57,130 bases of DNA from contig JADFYJ010000017.1 of assembly GCA_015233115.1 (NCBI GenBank), positions 1-57,130 on the forward strand, written 5' to 3'. The notes under the pieces are model-generated. The model saw only the letters and a program-made list of their open reading frames with translations, searched no databases and had not been told where the DNA came from. Below, piece after piece: positions 36,265-55,219 of the stretch. Origin of the DNA: Candidatus Omnitrophota bacterium (GTDB taxonomy: Bacteria; Omnitrophota; Gorgyraeia; Zapsychrales; Zapsychraceae). The stretch's first letter is position 1, and each line of letters starts with the position of its first letter. The position numbers were made by a program, and so were the translations under genes.

Positions 36265-36921
36265 ATGTCAAGAATAGCAAGAGTAGAAGCGTTGGGGTAT
36301 CCGCATCATGTGATTCAGCGGGGCAATCGGAATCAGAAGGTGTTTTTTAGCGATCAGGATAAAGAAACATATCTAAAAATTTTGAAAATGAATAAGGATA
36401 TATTTGGTTTTGAAATTTGGGCGTATTGTCTTATGGATAATCATGTTCATCTTGTTGTTGTTCCGAAGAAGGAAAATGGAATGATAATGGGTATTGCTGA
36501 AACGCATCGTATGTATACGCGCATGATTAATTTTAGGTATGGTTGGCGGGGATATTTATGGCAGGGACGATTTAAAAGTTTTGTTATGGATGACAACTAT
36601 TTATTCGAAACTGTCCGGTATATAGAGATGAATCCTGTTAAGGCAAAAATCAAAAGAATAGCTGAAGAATATAAATATTCAAGTGCAAAAGCGCACTTAT
36701 CCAGAAAGCTCGATGAGATTTTAGATGATTTTTATTTATTAAATCAGGTTGATGATTGGAAACAATATTTAAGTTCAGGAGTTTTGGATGATGCCGTTAC
36801 TAAAATGAAAAATTCGGAATTAACCGGGCGGCCTTTGGGATCTGATGATTTTTTAAAAAAGCTAGAAAAAATTTTAGGCAGGGAATTTATAAAGAGAAAG
36901 CCGGGACCGAAAATAAAATGA
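36265..36921 (+). CDS. REP-associated tyrosine transposase (Y1/HUH family)
   Basis: Single-strand DNA transposase of the IS200/IS605-like Y1 fold. The start MSRIARVEALGYPHHVIQRG is typical of the group. The HUH pair is in DNHVHLVV and the catalytic tyrosine in VRYIEMNPVKA. The C-terminal half (TGRPLGSDDFLKKLEKILG) looks like the DNA-binding tail of larger RAYTs. 218 residues, apparently intact. It overlaps the next ORF through ATGA. Confidence 0.93.
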   Translation: MSRIARVEALGYPHHVIQRGNRNQKVFFSDQDKETYLKILKMNKDIFGFEIWAYCLMDNHVHLVVVPKKENGMIMGIAETHRMYTRMINFRYGWRGYLWQGRFKSFVMDDNYLFETVRYIEMNPVKAKIKRIAEEYKYSSAKAHLSRKLDEILDDFYLLNQVDDWKQYLSSGVLDDAVTKMKNSELTGRPLGSDDFLKKLEKILGREFIKRKPGPKIK

Positions 36922-40330: not shown

Positions 40331-40993
40331 ATGCAAAAAAAGGTATTATCAACTATTCTGCTTTTATTAACGGGAATTGTTTTCATCCCTCAAGCCCACG
40401 CGGCACTTATTGCGGCTGACGCCGTAGCTAACAGCTCATGGTATACCATGCCGGTTTCAACCATTGTAGACGGTAGTGGTCTGAATACAGCTAATAATCC
40501 TCCGACGCATACTTCTACAGATTGGTCTTCTTCCTGGGAAACTATGCCGTATCAATATTCAGGAGTAGTCACCTTTGATTTTCACCAGAATACGGATGTG
40601 GGAAGTTTTAGGGTTTGGAATTTTAATTTAGTCAATGGTAATGGCTCATTCACTGGCCGCGGTTCAAAAGATGTTAATGTTTTAACACAAACTGACGGCG
40701 GCGCATGGGTAGATCGAGGGTTGTATCTTTTTCCTGAAGCTCCGGGGTTGGATTCTTACACTGGAAATCTTTTCGCAAATCAAAATTGGGAAGATGTCCG
40801 TTATGTAAAATTCAATATTAGCAGTATTTGGGGCGAAGGGGATACGGGCGGGCACACGGGTTTATCTGAAGTGCAATTTTATACGCCTGAAGAAACACCA
40901 GGGAATGGTCAATCAACGGTTCCTGAACCAGCAACGATGTTTTTATTAGGTAGCGGTTTTTTAGGAATATTTTTTAGAAGATTTGGCCGATAA
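40331..40993 (+). CDS. PEP-CTERM sorted exported protein, discoidin-like body
   Basis: Signal peptide MQKKVLSTILLLLTGIVFIP..AHA, a beta-rich body of about 165 residues (SGVVTFDFHQNTDVGSFRVW, GLSEVQFYTPEE) that recalls F5/8-type carbohydrate-binding domains, and the C-terminal tripartite tag VPEPATMFLLGSGFLGIFF ending RRFGR. The tag is processed by an exosortase/EpsH enzyme, not encoded in this window. It has its own promoter and terminator. Confidence 0.88.
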   Translation: MQKKVLSTILLLLTGIVFIPQAHAALIAADAVANSSWYTMPVSTIVDGSGLNTANNPPTHTSTDWSSSWETMPYQYSGVVTFDFHQNTDVGSFRVWNFNLVNGNGSFTGRGSKDVNVLTQTDGGAWVDRGLYLFPEAPGLDSYTGNLFANQNWEDVRYVKFNISSIWGEGDTGGHTGLSEVQFYTPEETPGNGQSTVPEPATMFLLGSGFLGIFFRRFGR

Positions 40994-43652: not shown

Positions 43653-43740
43653 CCTGTTTTTAAGTCGGAAAATTTTTTGATCAAGTTGGGTTGTTTTTTT
43701 GTTTTTTATCGGGTATACTTTCAGCATTCAAAGGATACCC

Positions 43741-44316
43741 ATGAAAAAAAATACTACTGTCCCATTTTTTGTTATCTGTTGTTTATTTTTCTGTGCCTTT
43801 AGCGCAGCGGCCGGCCTATTAAACGGATCCGGCGAGCATTCTTCACCAGGCATGGACCAAATTCCAGACCGGTCAGTCGCCAGAATGCTATCTGATGATT
43901 TTTCCAATCAAAGGCCGCTCAAGGACGGATCCAATCCATGGCTCCCATTTGTCATTCCGCAGGAGAATCATTTTTGTTCCCCATTTGAGGGCGATGGGAG
44001 CGGCGGCAATTCATTTAACAATTCTGGCAGTGGAGATTTTGGCCAATCGTTCAGCAGACATAGTTCGACTCGTGAAACTGATCCGGATTCTTGGGGCAAT
44101 AGTGGAGGCGCTCCAAATTCATCTGATCCATCTGGTTCGTCTGGCTTACCTGATCCGAAAGATTTGTTACCTGGCGATCTTCCTATATTTTATCCAACAA
44201 TATCGCCATCTATTTTTGATGATTCGCCGTCTGTTGTCCCTGAACCATCGACAATATTATTGTTAAGTATGGGCATAATGGGAATGTTGCCTTTGACCCG
44301 TCGGCGTATTCTATGA
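43741..44316 (+). CDS. PEP-CTERM sorted exported protein, Ser/Gly-rich
   Basis: The 191 residues begin with a signal peptide (MKKNTTVPFFVICCLFFCAF). A low-complexity Ser/Gly/Asp/Pro-rich body follows (GDGSGGNSFNNSGSGDFG, PNSSDPSGSSGLPDPKD). The chain ends with VVPEPSTILLLSMGIMGML and a basic tail LTRRRIL, the PEP-CTERM sorting tag. ATG 43741 has AAAGGA upstream. It overlaps the next gene by four bases. Confidence 0.85.
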   Translation: MKKNTTVPFFVICCLFFCAFSAAAGLLNGSGEHSSPGMDQIPDRSVARMLSDDFSNQRPLKDGSNPWLPFVIPQENHFCSPFEGDGSGGNSFNNSGSGDFGQSFSRHSSTRETDPDSWGNSGGAPNSSDPSGSSGLPDPKDLLPGDLPIFYPTISPSIFDDSPSVVPEPSTILLLSMGIMGMLPLTRRRIL

Positions 44317-50777: not shown

Positions 50778-51272
50778 ATGTCTTTTGAAGAATTAACTGA
50801 AAGAATATCAACCAAATTAAAAGGGATTGTGTATAAGATCCATAGATCTTCACCGTCTTTTTCTGCGGAAGACTTGTATCAGGAAGCGGTTCTTAATCTT
50901 TGGGTCGAGTATGAAAATGGTAAGTTATCAGACAAGACAGACAGTTATATTTTACAAAGCTGTTATTTTTATTTGAAGAATTACATACGCACGGCACAGG
51001 ATAGGACATCCTTATTGAGCGTGAATATGCCGATGGAAAGTCTTTCCGTTGAAGTCAAGGATTCGGTTGATGAAGATCCTGATATGGATACTTTAATGGA
51101 GAAAGTTTTTAATGACGGGTTAAGCCGGAAGGAAAAAGAGATTGTTTTCTTTTATCTTCAAGGATGGACGACAAGGCAAATAGGTGAACGGCTGGGAGTT
51201 TCTCATGTGAGTGTTGTGAAATTGGAGCATAATATTCGAGAAAAGTGTAAAAATTTTAAAAATCATGTTTAA
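50778..51272 (+). CDS. Small RNA polymerase sigma-70 family factor
   Basis: Of 164 residues, the N-terminal part has a sigma region 2 (SFSAEDLYQEAVLNLWVEYE, SYILQSCYFYLKNYIRT). The C-terminal part has region 4 (LSRKEKEIVFFYLQGWTTRQ, IGERLGVSHVSVVKLEHNI). It is a compact ECF-like or phage-type sigma. No anti-sigma gene is adjacent. Its place before the P-II permease gene suggests a role in that regulon; this is inference. Confidence 0.8.
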   Translation: MSFEELTERISTKLKGIVYKIHRSSPSFSAEDLYQEAVLNLWVEYENGKLSDKTDSYILQSCYFYLKNYIRTAQDRTSLLSVNMPMESLSVEVKDSVDEDPDMDTLMEKVFNDGLSRKEKEIVFFYLQGWTTRQIGERLGVSHVSVVKLEHNIREKCKNFKNHV

Positions 51273-51343
51273 TTTTGGTTACCAAACCGTGATTTTTGTA
51301 CTTGTATTGGTGTAGTACCCGCAATGATGCGCAAACCAACAAT

Positions 51344-51371
51344 GACGTTCCTCAGAAGGAACGTCTTTTAT
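51344..51371 (+). terminator. Terminator-like hairpin in the permease leader (1)
   Basis: GACGTTCCT (51344-51352), loop CAGA, AGGAACGTC (51357-51365), then TTTTATTTTAT. It may end the sigma transcript or serve as an attenuator of the next gene. AATGATGCGCAAACC lies just upstream. Confidence 0.7.
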
Positions 51372-51385
51372 TTTATAAGACACAG

Positions 51386-51461
51386 GCGTCTTGGCTGGGG
51401 GACATGATACTTAATTTGTTTTAATTAAGTTTCGTGTTCCCCGACTAAAGGCGCTTTTTTT
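51386..51461 (+). terminator. Long hairpin with T-run in the permease leader (2)
   Basis: GCGTCTT..AAAGGCGC encloses GGGGGACATGATACTTAATT facing TAATTAAGTTTCGTGTTCCCC (51397-51442), and seven T follow. The inner part is a relative of the 81-bp element at 40113. It ends 32 bases before the permease start. Confidence 0.7.
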
Positions 51462-51493: not shown

Positions 51494-53407
51494 ATGGCTA
51501 CGGTTGATATGACAAAACCGGAAATTAAACCAACACTTGGATTGCTGGGCGCAACGGTCAACGCAATGGCCTTGATTGCTCCCGGGGCATTTTTGTGGAT
51601 TACGTATCAGTTACAAGCGGCAGCGACTGCGCCCAATGGTACTTCGGTGAGTAGTGATATTTGGGCGGGAATTGTGGCTGCTCTGGTGATCGCGTTCTTA
51701 ACCGCGATCTCTTATGCGGAATTGGCCAAAATTTATCCGGAAGCAGGATTTAAAAGCTGCTGCTATTTTGTAGAGAAGGCTTTTGGCGGACTTAAGAGGA
51801 AGAAAAAAGAAGGATGTCCTGAAGGATGCGCGGAAGGGTCTTCGGATGAACGACGTAAACCTTTCACGCTCACCCGTTTTGCCAAACTTATTACAGCTTG
51901 GTCAGCGCATCTTTTTTACTGGGTCTATCCGGGCGTCATGGTCGCGTTCATGGCTAACTTGATCGGCTACCTTTATACGCAGTTTACCGGACACACCTTT
52001 TCTATGGGCACGTTGACCGGCATTGGAGTGGTGTTCGCCTTTGCTTGTGCCTATATTGCTTACCGTGGAGTCACCGGTTCAACTAAAACCGCATTTTGGA
52101 TTAACGTCATTCAGCTGGTGACGTTGGTGATCTTTAGCGGTTTGGCAATTTGGTACCGTATCGCGAATCCGCAACACGCGACACAATGGTCATTTACCGG
52201 CGGGTGGGATGTTATCCGTCCGCATTCACTTTATGGTGTATTAATTCAGTCGACAGTTGCTATTTTGATCTTGGTTGGGTTTGAAAGCTGTACCGCGCTT
52301 TCAGCGGAAACCAAGGAACCGGAAAAAACGATTCCAAAAGCAATTATTCTTTCTTTGGTTATTCAGGGGATATTCGCATATCTGTTCCAATACTTTGCCG
52401 CAGGATTGATGGTTAGCGAAAAGTTGGTCGGGACAGCAGCCGGAAAAGCAGTTATGGGTCTTGATGCTGCTGCGGCATCAGGCGCGCCGATCGGCGATAT
52501 GGCAAAACTTTTGGGAGATAATCTCTTAGGCGGGATAGGGTTTGGTTTGATGATTACCATGGCCATTACTGTTGCTATCGCGATTATCGGAACCACATTA
52601 AGTTGTATGAATACCGCGGTACGCGTCAGCTGTGCTATGGCTGAAGATAAAGAGTTCCCGGAATTATTGGGATTTATGGACGGTCAATTCAGCACCCCGC
52701 ATGTAGCCCTTTGGGTTTTGGCTATTGTTTCCTCTATTATCGCGGCGGTCGGCGTGCGGTCAGTCGTCGGGTTAACAGGCATTACTTTGGCATCCAATCT
52801 GGGAACATTTGTGCTTTACGCGATGACATGTATTTCCGCGTTTCTTGCTTTTAAGGATAGAGCGGATTTTAAAGTGATTAAGCATGCTGTTATTCCTGGT
52901 CTAGGGTTAATCACGAATCTCATCATGGTTGTCGCTATCGTTTATCTGTATATCATCGGAAATTCTGACGCTCAGGCTGAGGCGAAGATATGCTTTATCA
53001 TCGCCGGCGCTTGGGGTTTCATTAGTTTGTTTTATGTTGCTATGACGACGATGAACAAGTCCTACCATTTAAAAATGGTTTCAGGGGTGATTCGTCCGGA
53101 ACAGCTGAACTTGGTGGTGGAAGCTCTTCGGCAGGAAGATTATATCATGGGGATGACCGTCACCAAAGTAAGAGGTTTTGGCCGTCAAAAAGGCCAAGTC
53201 ATTGGGGATGCGGAAACTAACCGTATTAATTTTCTTCCCAAGGTGAGGGTGGATGTGGTGGTTAAGGAATGGGATGTCCCAACGGTCATGGATATTATGA
53301 GTGAAGCCGCGCGGACCGGGAATGTTGGTGACGGAAAGATTTTTGTGCTAGACGCGTCACAGGCAAGACGTATCCGCACCAGTGATGATGGAGTATGGGC
53401 GATATAA
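51494..53407 (+). CDS. APC-family amino acid permease with C-terminal P-II domain
   Basis: The 637-residue fusion has about 12 membrane segments of an amino acid/polyamine permease (about 15-520; GATVNAMALIAPGAFLWI, ALSAETKEPEKTIPKAII). An intact P-II (GlnB-like) domain spans about 525-637 (VSGVIRPEQLNLVVEAL, VRGFGRQKGQ, NFLPKVRVDVVV, GNVGDGKIFVLD). The T-loop (VIGDAETNRI) lacks the RGxEY tyrosine that is uridylylated in classical P-II. A Lys/Cys-rich loop (KKKEGCPEGCAEG, about 102-114) is inserted between early segments. A gate directly sensing 2-oxoglutarate/ATP is inferred. Confidence 0.93.
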   Translation: MATVDMTKPEIKPTLGLLGATVNAMALIAPGAFLWITYQLQAAATAPNGTSVSSDIWAGIVAALVIAFLTAISYAELAKIYPEAGFKSCCYFVEKAFGGLKRKKKEGCPEGCAEGSSDERRKPFTLTRFAKLITAWSAHLFYWVYPGVMVAFMANLIGYLYTQFTGHTFSMGTLTGIGVVFAFACAYIAYRGVTGSTKTAFWINVIQLVTLVIFSGLAIWYRIANPQHATQWSFTGGWDVIRPHSLYGVLIQSTVAILILVGFESCTALSAETKEPEKTIPKAIILSLVIQGIFAYLFQYFAAGLMVSEKLVGTAAGKAVMGLDAAAASGAPIGDMAKLLGDNLLGGIGFGLMITMAITVAIAIIGTTLSCMNTAVRVSCAMAEDKEFPELLGFMDGQFSTPHVALWVLAIVSSIIAAVGVRSVVGLTGITLASNLGTFVLYAMTCISAFLAFKDRADFKVIKHAVIPGLGLITNLIMVVAIVYLYIIGNSDAQAEAKICFIIAGAWGFISLFYVAMTTMNKSYHLKMVSGVIRPEQLNLVVEALRQEDYIMGMTVTKVRGFGRQKGQVIGDAETNRINFLPKVRVDVVVKEWDVPTVMDIMSEAARTGNVGDGKIFVLDASQARRIRTSDDGVWAI

Positions 53408-53467: not shown

Positions 53468-53806
53468 ATGAAAAAGATAGAAGCCATAATCCGTCCGGCC
53501 AGGGTCAGTCACGTTTGTGAGGCCTTGGATAAAGTAGGACACCCAGGAATGATGCTGACCGAAATTGAAGGTCATGGAAAACAAAAAGGCATGACCAAAG
53601 TTTTGCGCGGCAAAGAGTATCATGTCGAGTTTATGACTAAAACAAAGATCGATATTGTAGCAAAAGACGAGGACGTGGCAAGAATCGTTCAAGCCATTCG
53701 TGAAGCTGCTTTCACCGGAGAGGTCGGCGATGGAAAAATATTCGTTTCAGCTATGGAGGATGCGATACGAATCCGGACAGATGAAAAAGGCGATACTGTT
53801 TTGTAG
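53468..53806 (+). CDS. glnB: Nitrogen regulatory protein P-II
   Basis: Trimeric sensor of 2-oxoglutarate, ATP and ADP. 112 residues: KKIEAIIRPARVSHVCEAL, GHGKQKG, T-loop MTKVLRGKEYHVEF with the tyrosine of the RGxEY motif kept, and FTGEVGDGKIFVSAMEDAIR. It is 60 bases downstream of the P-II-fused permease, so the two P-II domains may compete or form mixed trimers. GlnB versus GlnK is not decided. Confidence 0.95.
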   Translation: MKKIEAIIRPARVSHVCEALDKVGHPGMMLTEIEGHGKQKGMTKVLRGKEYHVEFMTKTKIDIVAKDEDVARIVQAIREAAFTGEVGDGKIFVSAMEDAIRIRTDEKGDTVL

Positions 53807-53813
53807 GTGTGTT

Positions 53814-53957
53814 ATGAAAAAAACACGACAAGAAGAATTAATGGAATTGCAGCAAAACATAAAAGAAAGCCTTCGGCAGAAAAAGCTGAAGGAGTTAAAA
53901 AGATTAGTCCAGAGGTATTTATGTCTATTAATGTTCAAACCAAAGACCAGGAGGTAA
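53814..53957 (+). CDS. Small ORF between P-II and porin (47 aa)
   Basis: ATG 53814 after TAGGTG opens a Lys/Glu-rich, probably helical peptide (MKKTRQEELMELQQNIKESL). It stops at TAA 53955, two bases before the porin start and overlapping the porin's GGAGG. The fit suggests translational coupling, but it could also be chance. No homologue recognised. Confidence 0.4.
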   Translation: MKKTRQEELMELQQNIKESLRQKKLKELKRLVQRYLCLLMFKPKTRR

Positions 53958-53959
53958 AA

Positions 53960-55219
53960 ATGTATCGTTTTCATATGGGATTTGTTTTAGGTTTCATGTT
54001 GTTCATGTTAGGATTTCCGGCCCTGTGCCGGGCGGATGACGCTAAAGAGGCAGAGTTGTTGCAAAAGGTTGATGCTATGGAAAAAAGGATTAAATTTTTA
54101 GAAGAGAACCAAGTAAAGAGTGGAGACGCTGTAATTAACAAAACTGAGGTCGAAGCTATTGTAGACGAAAAAGTTTCTAAATCCGTTGTTCCTGATTTTT
54201 TCAAAGATATAACCATGAGCGGTTTTGTGGATACTTCTTACGTTTACAATACCAATCATCCGGACTCTGGTACCAATACTGCACGGGCTTTTGATACGGA
54301 AGCCAATAGTTTTGGTTTTCAGGCCGCCAAGCTGGCTCTTGAAAAATTGCCTGCCAAGACCGGCGGAGTTGGTTTTCGGACGGACCTTTTGTTAGGAGAA
54401 GATGCCAAGGTTTTGAATTCTTTCACAAACGGATTTGGCAGTGACGGTGATTTTGACGTGGAGCAGGCATATGTCGATATTATGGCGCCTGTCGGTAAGG
54501 GGTTGGATATTAAGGCTGGTAAATTTACCACTTTGGCTGGAGCCGAAGTCATTGAATCCAAAGACAACTGGAATTTTAGCCGCTCGCTTCTGTTCGGCTA
54601 TGCAGAGCCTGCGACCCATACCGGTGTTCGCGCCAGTTATCCGATTACAGATACTCTGACCGGATATCTTGGTGTCAATAACGGCTGGGACGATGTGAAG
54701 GATAACAATAAAGGGAAGTCGGTTGAAAGTTCTCTAGCGTGGGCGCCCAAGGATTGGTTCTCATTAAATCTGGCAGGGATGTATGGACCAGAACAGGCAT
54801 TCAATAATCACTCGAACCGAGGTTTGGTCAGCCTTGTCGCGACCTACCAGCCGATCAAGCCATTGACCCTGAAACTCGCTGCGGATTATGCTAACGAACA
54901 GGATACGACCGGGCTGAACATGGATAAAAATGGAACGTGGTCTGGCGTTGCTGGCTATGCGCGCTATGACATCAATGACAAGTGGAGCTTGTCCAACCGG
55001 ACTGAATATTTTTCTGATCCCAATGGTCTGCGGGTTGTTCCCGGTACTAATTTGAGCATGTGGGAGAATACATCAACTTTAGAGTTAAGGCCTTATAAGG
55101 GTCTTATTACTCGTCTGGAATACCGTTATGACAGTGCTTCTGAAGACATTTATACGGTGGGTTCTGCATCTGCGGGTCATCAGGGGACGGTGGGTTTAGA
55201 AGCGATTTTTGCGTTTTAA
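53960..55219 (+). CDS. Outer-membrane beta-barrel porin (OmpL/bbp2-like)
   Basis: The 419-residue protein has a signal peptide (about 1-25, ending CRA), a short coiled coil (AELLQKVDAMEKRIKFLEEN) and a beta-barrel of about 330 residues with paired strands (VDTSYVYNTNHPDSGTN, LDIKAGKFTTLAGAEVIES, ...) ending in aromatic F (LEAIFAF). This resembles putative porins of the bbp2 (PF07642) type found next to ammonium and P-II genes. The start is ATG 53960 with AGGAGG; the longer frame from 53807 is rejected. Confidence 0.87.
   Translation: MYRFHMGFVLGFMLFMLGFPALCRADDAKEAELLQKVDAMEKRIKFLEENQVKSGDAVINKTEVEAIVDEKVSKSVVPDFFKDITMSGFVDTSYVYNTNHPDSGTNTARAFDTEANSFGFQAAKLALEKLPAKTGGVGFRTDLLLGEDAKVLNSFTNGFGSDGDFDVEQAYVDIMAPVGKGLDIKAGKFTTLAGAEVIESKDNWNFSRSLLFGYAEPATHTGVRASYPITDTLTGYLGVNNGWDDVKDNNKGKSVESSLAWAPKDWFSLNLAGMYGPEQAFNNHSNRGLVSLVATYQPIKPLTLKLAADYANEQDTTGLNMDKNGTWSGVAGYARYDINDKWSLSNRTEYFSDPNGLRVVPGTNLSMWENTSTLELRPYKGLITRLEYRYDSASEDIYTVGSASAGHQGTVGLEAIFAF

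Follow-up and report, generated by a model that had tools for sequence, protein, structure and literature searches.

A 57,130-nucleotide stretch of contig JADFYJ010000017.1 from a Candidatus Omnitrophota bacterium (the window) encodes an APC-family permease with a P-II domain attached at its C terminus. The fusion would be the known P-II control of transporters made covalent, in a transporter superfamily new to P-II control. On balance, we lean toward reading the protein as a nitrogen-regulated APC-family importer whose covalently attached cytosolic P-II domain gates the permease on the basis of a trimer; within this reading, we infer ligand binding, the make-up of the trimer, the direction of gating, and the substrate. 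The arrangement suggests that uptake is gated directly by the nitrogen status of the cell. The core of the cluster consists of four features:

51494 to 53407, forward strand: gene for a fusion of a 12-TM APC permease (residues 1-525) and a P-II domain at the C terminus (residues 526-637), from Pfam, AlphaFold2, and the ApcT match
53069 to 53404, forward strand: fused P-II domain, residues 526-637, from the AlphaFold2 model, the junction alignment, and the ligand residues
53468 to 53806, forward strand: free P-II partner of the EGHGKQKG type with Tyr51 kept, Pfam P-II E 1.9e-28, in its own clade in the tree
53807 to 55219, forward strand: BBP2/OmpL-like outer-membrane porin, next in the cluster, Pfam BBP2 E 1.8e-86; the listed start is GTG, with ATG at 53960 more likely to be the true one

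The preliminary description had proposed an APC permease with an intact C-terminal P-II domain, and this is what we find: the fusion gene is a single unbroken ORF of 637 residues with a ribosome site preceding its ATG, the P-II domain is intact in sequence, and Pfam detects AA_permease_2 at residues 126-483 (E 2e-25) and P-II (PF00543) at residues 527-630 (E 1.4e-20, 74 bits against a cut-off of 25). The AlphaFold2 monomer model (pLDDT 82.3, pTM 0.80) has 12 TM helices, a count that places the fused P-II domain, as modeled, in the cytosol. TM12 is modeled as one helix (residues 491-524) that is followed by the first strand of P-II (beta1, residues 526-533) with no linker, and in the alignment this junction is free of indels in 39 of 39 fusions, unlike an ordinary flexible linker. 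The distal T-loop of the fused domain (about residues 560-582) has low model confidence, as is expected of a mobile loop. The permease part of the window protein also has an odd charged, Cys-containing insertion (KRKKKEGCPEGCAEGSSDERR) at residues 99-123 (about 51788-51862), located in the cytosolic TM2-TM3 loop and absent from the family consensus.

The top structural match of the model was ApcT (3gia; Z 39.1, rmsd 2.4 over 406 aligned residues), and the GkApcT/CAT homologue (6f34; Z 37.8) and KimA (Z 36) were also matched. A phmmer search of the permease part against PDB sequences gave no match; the profile of the permease family reaches SLC7/CAT-type transporters and ApcT. The AA_permease_2 profile and the 12-TM inverted-repeat fold place the protein in the APC superfamily and, like ApcT and GkApcT, it has the 12-TM LeuT/APC fold. 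It differs from these two in being only 16-17% identical to them, in its extra C-terminal P-II domain, and in having Gln207, invariant in the permease family, aligned with the TM5 Lys of GkApcT, so that the lysine of the proton-coupled ApcT/CAT subgroup is missing. We take this lysine to be the proton-coupling K191. The APC matches are generic (amino-acid/polyamine) and single out no substrate.

Scanned once, the GTDB species genomes gave 80 loci, which represent the best matches and not a census. Counting that of the window, there are 39 full permease–P-II fusions, all from MAGs. The 38 further fusions, found in independent MAGs and 54-72% identical, exclude an assembly or frameshift artefact or chance as the source of the architecture. 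The MAGs carry about ten phylum labels in all: Omnitrophota, Elusimicrobiota, Thermodesulfobacteriota, Planctomycetota, Nitrospirota, and Spirochaetota, and further Fibrobacterota, Firestonebacteria, FCPU426, Myxococcota, and Pseudomonadota. The distribution is patchy, with a match in only 12 of 285 sampled genomes of Omnitrophota. In a maximum-likelihood tree of the 80 permeases, all fused ones lie on one side of a branch with 100/100 support, and the sole "unfused" member within the fused clade, L038, is truncated where its contig stops. In the P-II tree, the fused domains similarly form one 100/100 clade, separated by a branch of 0.8 from every free P-II. Independent fusions were rejected by the single origin in both trees, and the fused domain and the adjacent P-II fall in separate clades, which rejects the former as a copy of the latter. 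A single fusion, later passed from phylum to phylum, would, judged from these trees, best explain the pattern. A known and widespread transporter class was named in the preliminary description as grounds to abandon its idea; the class indeed proved widespread, but we found it described nowhere in the searched literature. The search covered full-text literature and few subscription papers and returned no account of an APC–P-II fusion, and the domain architecture may have been noticed earlier.

The closest solved chains to the fused domain are true GlnK/GlnB proteins and not PII-like outliers, the top one being GlnK2 of Methanothermococcus (E 3.4e-22, residues 522-636). We aligned the 39 fused domains, the 38 relatives and the window, and numbered P-II residues after Escherichia coli GlnB. 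R9, G37, R38, K58, G87-D88-G89-K90, and R101 are kept in 39 of 39 domains, R103 in 36, and Q39 in 33, with Thr in the other six, mostly of FCPU426 type. These are the ATP and Mg-ATP-2-oxoglutarate (2-OG) residues of classical P-II proteins, with the GDGK loop, R101, and R103 serving ATP and Q39 and K58, at the base of the T-loop, serving 2-OG, and the window domain has GDGK, R101, R103, Q39, and K58 all present. The absence of ATP- or 2-OG-binding residues, which would have counted heavily against the original proposal, was thus not observed in the window. R101 and R103 reach into the ATP site of the adjacent subunit, and given this cross-subunit role, their retention implies that the fused domain works in a trimer. 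The T-loop has fared differently: between positions 41 and 55 its length ranges from 8 to 21 residues, its sequence is variable, and it is without a conserved plug, which we count against the leading model. Tyr51, the uridylylation site that is not universal in the P-II family, is found in none of the 39 fused domains; the window domain has Asn at this position, and 30 domains have Asp or Glu. The six copies with Thr at Q39 (L034, L041, L042, L045, and L068 among them), all but L034 also without a free partner, have possibly lost 2-OG sensing, as far as the residue itself tells.

A free P-II of one clade, the partner type, is found near 32 of the 39 fused loci; the seven without it belong to the derived FCPU426-type group, and these seven, together with the six Thr-at-Q39 domains, also count against the leading model. 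The partner has retained what the fused domain has not: its T-loop has 13 residues in 29 of 30 cases, Tyr51 is present in 28 of 30, and Arg47 is conserved. In the host genome (G000, 91% complete), no GlnD uridylyltransferase was found, and among 20 host genomes searched, only three had any GlnD match, one of them (G005) weak and in a giant frame. Given this scarcity, the retention of Tyr51 need not mean uridylylation, and the earlier argument from a "modifiable tyrosine" is weak: the loss of the residue in the fused domain and its persistence in the free copy stand, its modification does not. Both amt genes of the genome have their own P-II directly behind them, which leaves the partner at 53468-53806 dispensable for Amt and free for the permease. 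Pairwise distances of fused domains and partners are correlated (0.82, Mantel P 0.0005), compared with 0.55 for the fused domain and its own permease and 0.33-0.38 for the fused domain and the GlnK that is linked to Amt in these loci. Linkage in a single operon gives some correlation by itself, and most of the excess is due to a single clade of six members; once it is left out, the correlation between fused domain and partner is 0.64 and the partial correlation, with the permease removed, is 0.34. In this clade (L006, L009, L013, L014, L017, and L040), the fused and the free P-II have both strongly diverged and the permease has not. The co-variation and the dedicated gene support mixed trimers, short of proof. 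The suggestion made at the outset, that either the permease trimerises or mixed trimers with the free P-II form, therefore appears sound in its logic, with R101 and R103 expected to act across subunits and the partner co-varying with the fused domain.

The ATP/ADP and Mg-ATP-2-OG sites of P-II proteins are intersubunit clefts, which is why a trimer is the expected working form of the fused domain. Under the model that we favor, the continuous passage of the TM12 helix into P-II beta1 would transmit the state of the P-II domain to the permease. The trimer would most likely be mixed with the adjacent free P-II, the alternative being three permeases joined via their P-II domains. At high 2-OG, signaling nitrogen hunger, 2-OG-loaded P-II would favor the transporting state; at low 2-OG and high ADP, ADP-loaded or 2-OG-free P-II, together with the free partner, would close the permease. 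The APC relatives known so far function as monomers or dimers, which we count against control of the permease by a P-II trimer.

The surroundings of the gene add to the picture of uptake. The BBP2 porin cluster (c6) recurs at both fused and unfused loci, and amt and glnA genes lie near the fusion in many loci, glnA only sometimes in the fused clade. The closest unfused permeases, among the matches listed, are 51-65% identical and belong to a conserved operon of permease, PP2C phosphatase, Ser/Thr protein kinase, and type I glutamine synthetase, found in Chloroflexota, Ignavibacteriota, Bacteroidota, and other hosts. Such unfused relatives occur within L043-L085 (L083, L076, and L054, for example), and a BBP2 porin often precedes their operon. 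These sisters are the nearest relatives of the permease part, yet they have no P-II and in its place the operon holds the kinase/phosphatase pair; in other words, P-II stands in the fused clade where the sisters have kinase and phosphatase. Transport by the sisters is possibly controlled by phosphorylation, and control by nitrogen status is the simplest common theme of the transporter family. A more far-reaching version of the leading model, which we put forward tentatively, has a self-sensing APC transporter whose protomers are trimerised via the fused and the co-evolving free P-II, with ATP/ADP/2-OG gating the uptake of amino acids or amines; this control would have replaced the possible kinase/phosphatase control of the sisters and moved between uncultured phyla by gene transfer.

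The same observations can be read in the opposite direction. The permease could be a transceptor that senses extracellular or bound substrate and, via TM12, makes the P-II domain capture or release the free P-II or other nitrogen proteins. The rigid TM12–P-II junction and the dedicated free P-II at most loci would suit this, as would the greater conservation of the permease domain (71% mean identity) than of either P-II (60% and 56%), and the Amt-HK sensor KsAmt5, which signals inward, provides a precedent (PMC10433425). However, the conserved ATP/2-OG pocket fits a cytosolic sensor at least equally well, no output domain is known, and the operon context of porin, amt, and glnA is that of uptake, and we find the transceptor unlikely. 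We are equally doubtful of the fused P-II as a docking module that senses nothing and serves only to trimerise the permease or to recruit the free P-II, the T-loop of which would then act as the plug. The drift of the fused T-loop against the constancy of that of the partner, and the co-variation of the two, agree with such a role, but near-invariant 2-OG/ATP residues are unexpected for a mere scaffold and seven fusions have no partner to recruit. Finally, a degenerate or neutral fusion that hitch-hikes on a useful permease is very improbable: Thr at Q39 and the missing partners, mostly in the same derived FCPU426-type lineage, speak for it, but frame, junction, and pocket have survived wide divergence and persist under about ten phylum labels, and no loss was seen.

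Expression signals around the fusion point to nitrogen-type regulation, with sigma-54 sites in many relatives and the gene's own promoter-like element, ANTAR-like hairpins, and terminators in the window. A near-perfect sigma-54 -24/-12 site was found upstream of 17 of 38 fused and 4 of 42 unfused genes, with about 0.3 expected per group. In the window and in close Omnitrophota, the site is replaced by a leader with the element GTTACC-N15-18-ACTTGTA, then small hairpins with hexaloops, and either one or two intrinsic terminators. We considered whether genomes with the leader lack sigma-54 and place no weight on the idea: six of six are without it, yet about half of the phylum lacks sigma-54, and two genomes with sigma-54-type sites likewise gave no sigma-54 match. 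The region upstream of the fusion holds the following:

50778 to 51272, forward strand: small sigma-70-like gene of 164 aa, weak Pfam Sigma70_r2/r4 matches
51278 to 51306, forward strand: promoter-like element GTTACCA-N15-ACTTGTA, the only match in the genome
51320 to 51331, forward strand: ANTAR-like hexaloop hairpin P1, CGC AAUGAU GCG, loop with A1 and G4, stem of 3 bp only
51338 to 51349, forward strand: ANTAR-like hairpin P2, AAC AAUGAC GUU, loop with A1 and G4, weak 3-bp stem recognized by eye, overlapping the 5' arm of terminator 1
51344 to 51369, forward strand: intrinsic terminator 1, GACGTTCC..GGAACGTC with a T-run, conserved in the alignment
51377 to 51392, forward strand: third hexaloop hairpin, AAGAC ACAGGC GUCUU, strong stem, overlapping the 5' arm of terminator 2
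51385 to 51461, forward strand: intrinsic terminator 2, a long hairpin followed by seven T, from sequence and fold

The promoter-like element occurs 22 times over 905 kb of loci (re-fetched copies counted) against once in the reversed control, and amt/P-II clusters in L010, L018, and L022 have it upstream as well. Homologues of the small sigma-like gene were found in eight loci, namely the window, six other loci with the fusion, and the contig-truncated L053; in six loci no more than about 20 nt separate the element from the end of the gene. The gene is directly followed by the element in the window (50778-51306), L007, L016, L018, L020, and L053. The gene is possibly the dedicated sigma factor of the operon, and gene and element together look like an undescribed sigma factor and nitrogen regulon. 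The whole leader folds with a z score of -8.5. The published ANTAR signature is a hexaloop with A at position 1 and G at position 4 (PMC3369931); such hexaloops with a stem of at least 4 bp were present in 9 of 16 leaders, where 0.82 would be expected, while the P1 and P2 stems of the window have only 3 bp. The genome has one GAF-GAF-ANTAR gene, and GAF-ANTAR genes adjoin the fusion in five loci. The single GAF-GAF-ANTAR protein (L086, 466-1698) could act on the leader (51320-51461). RNAs of this type have been predicted before P-II and ammonium-transporter genes (Ramesh et al.), so the ANTAR-like leader layer is already of a known kind. A match to the bglG leader (Rfam RF03530) was dismissed as chance (24.8 bits against a cut-off of 80, E 0.37). 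Elsewhere in the window, the ORF at 36265-36921 resembles a REP-associated tyrosine transposase (RAYT), and the ORFs at 40331-40993 and 43699-44316 have VPEP...R-type C termini that look like PEP-CTERM sorting signals.

The fusion has parallels among known systems. The P-II-controlled transporters reviewed in 2023 are Amt, NrtABCD, UrtABCDE, and SbtA (PMC10710835), and the preliminary view that known P-II targets are mainly Amt channels was too narrow. In AmtB–GlnK, NrtABCD, UrtABCDE, and SbtA–SbtB, a P-II gene stands, as at the fusion, beside the transporter gene as an adjacent free partner, and the P-II senses ATP/ADP/2-OG (AMP for SbtB) and controls the uptake of nitrogen or carbon, as the leading model would have it for the fusion too; in the fusion, by contrast, a P-II is covalent, the transporter is of the APC and not the Amt, ABC, or SbtA type, and a second, free P-II exists besides. 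KimA, a K+ importer with bound c-di-AMP, shares the APC fold and, on the leading model, nucleotide control at cytosolic parts but has another effector and another cytosolic domain and is a dimer (title of 8b71). KsAmt5 is likewise a nitrogen transporter with a fused cytosolic signaling domain, but its membrane part is Amt, its fused part is a histidine kinase, and it works as a receptor (PMC10433425).

P-II control so far seems limited to trimeric transporters (PMC10710835), an apparent limit that counts against P-II control of an APC permease. A conserved P-II/APC fusion would break this rule or explain it, and it would extend P-II control to a transporter superfamily absent from the list of the review. 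The sister clades point to an exchange of control modules in evolution, with kinase/phosphatase on one side and P-II on the other, that is open to testing, and the fusion would offer a single-chain system for measuring 2-OG/ATP sensing and transport together.
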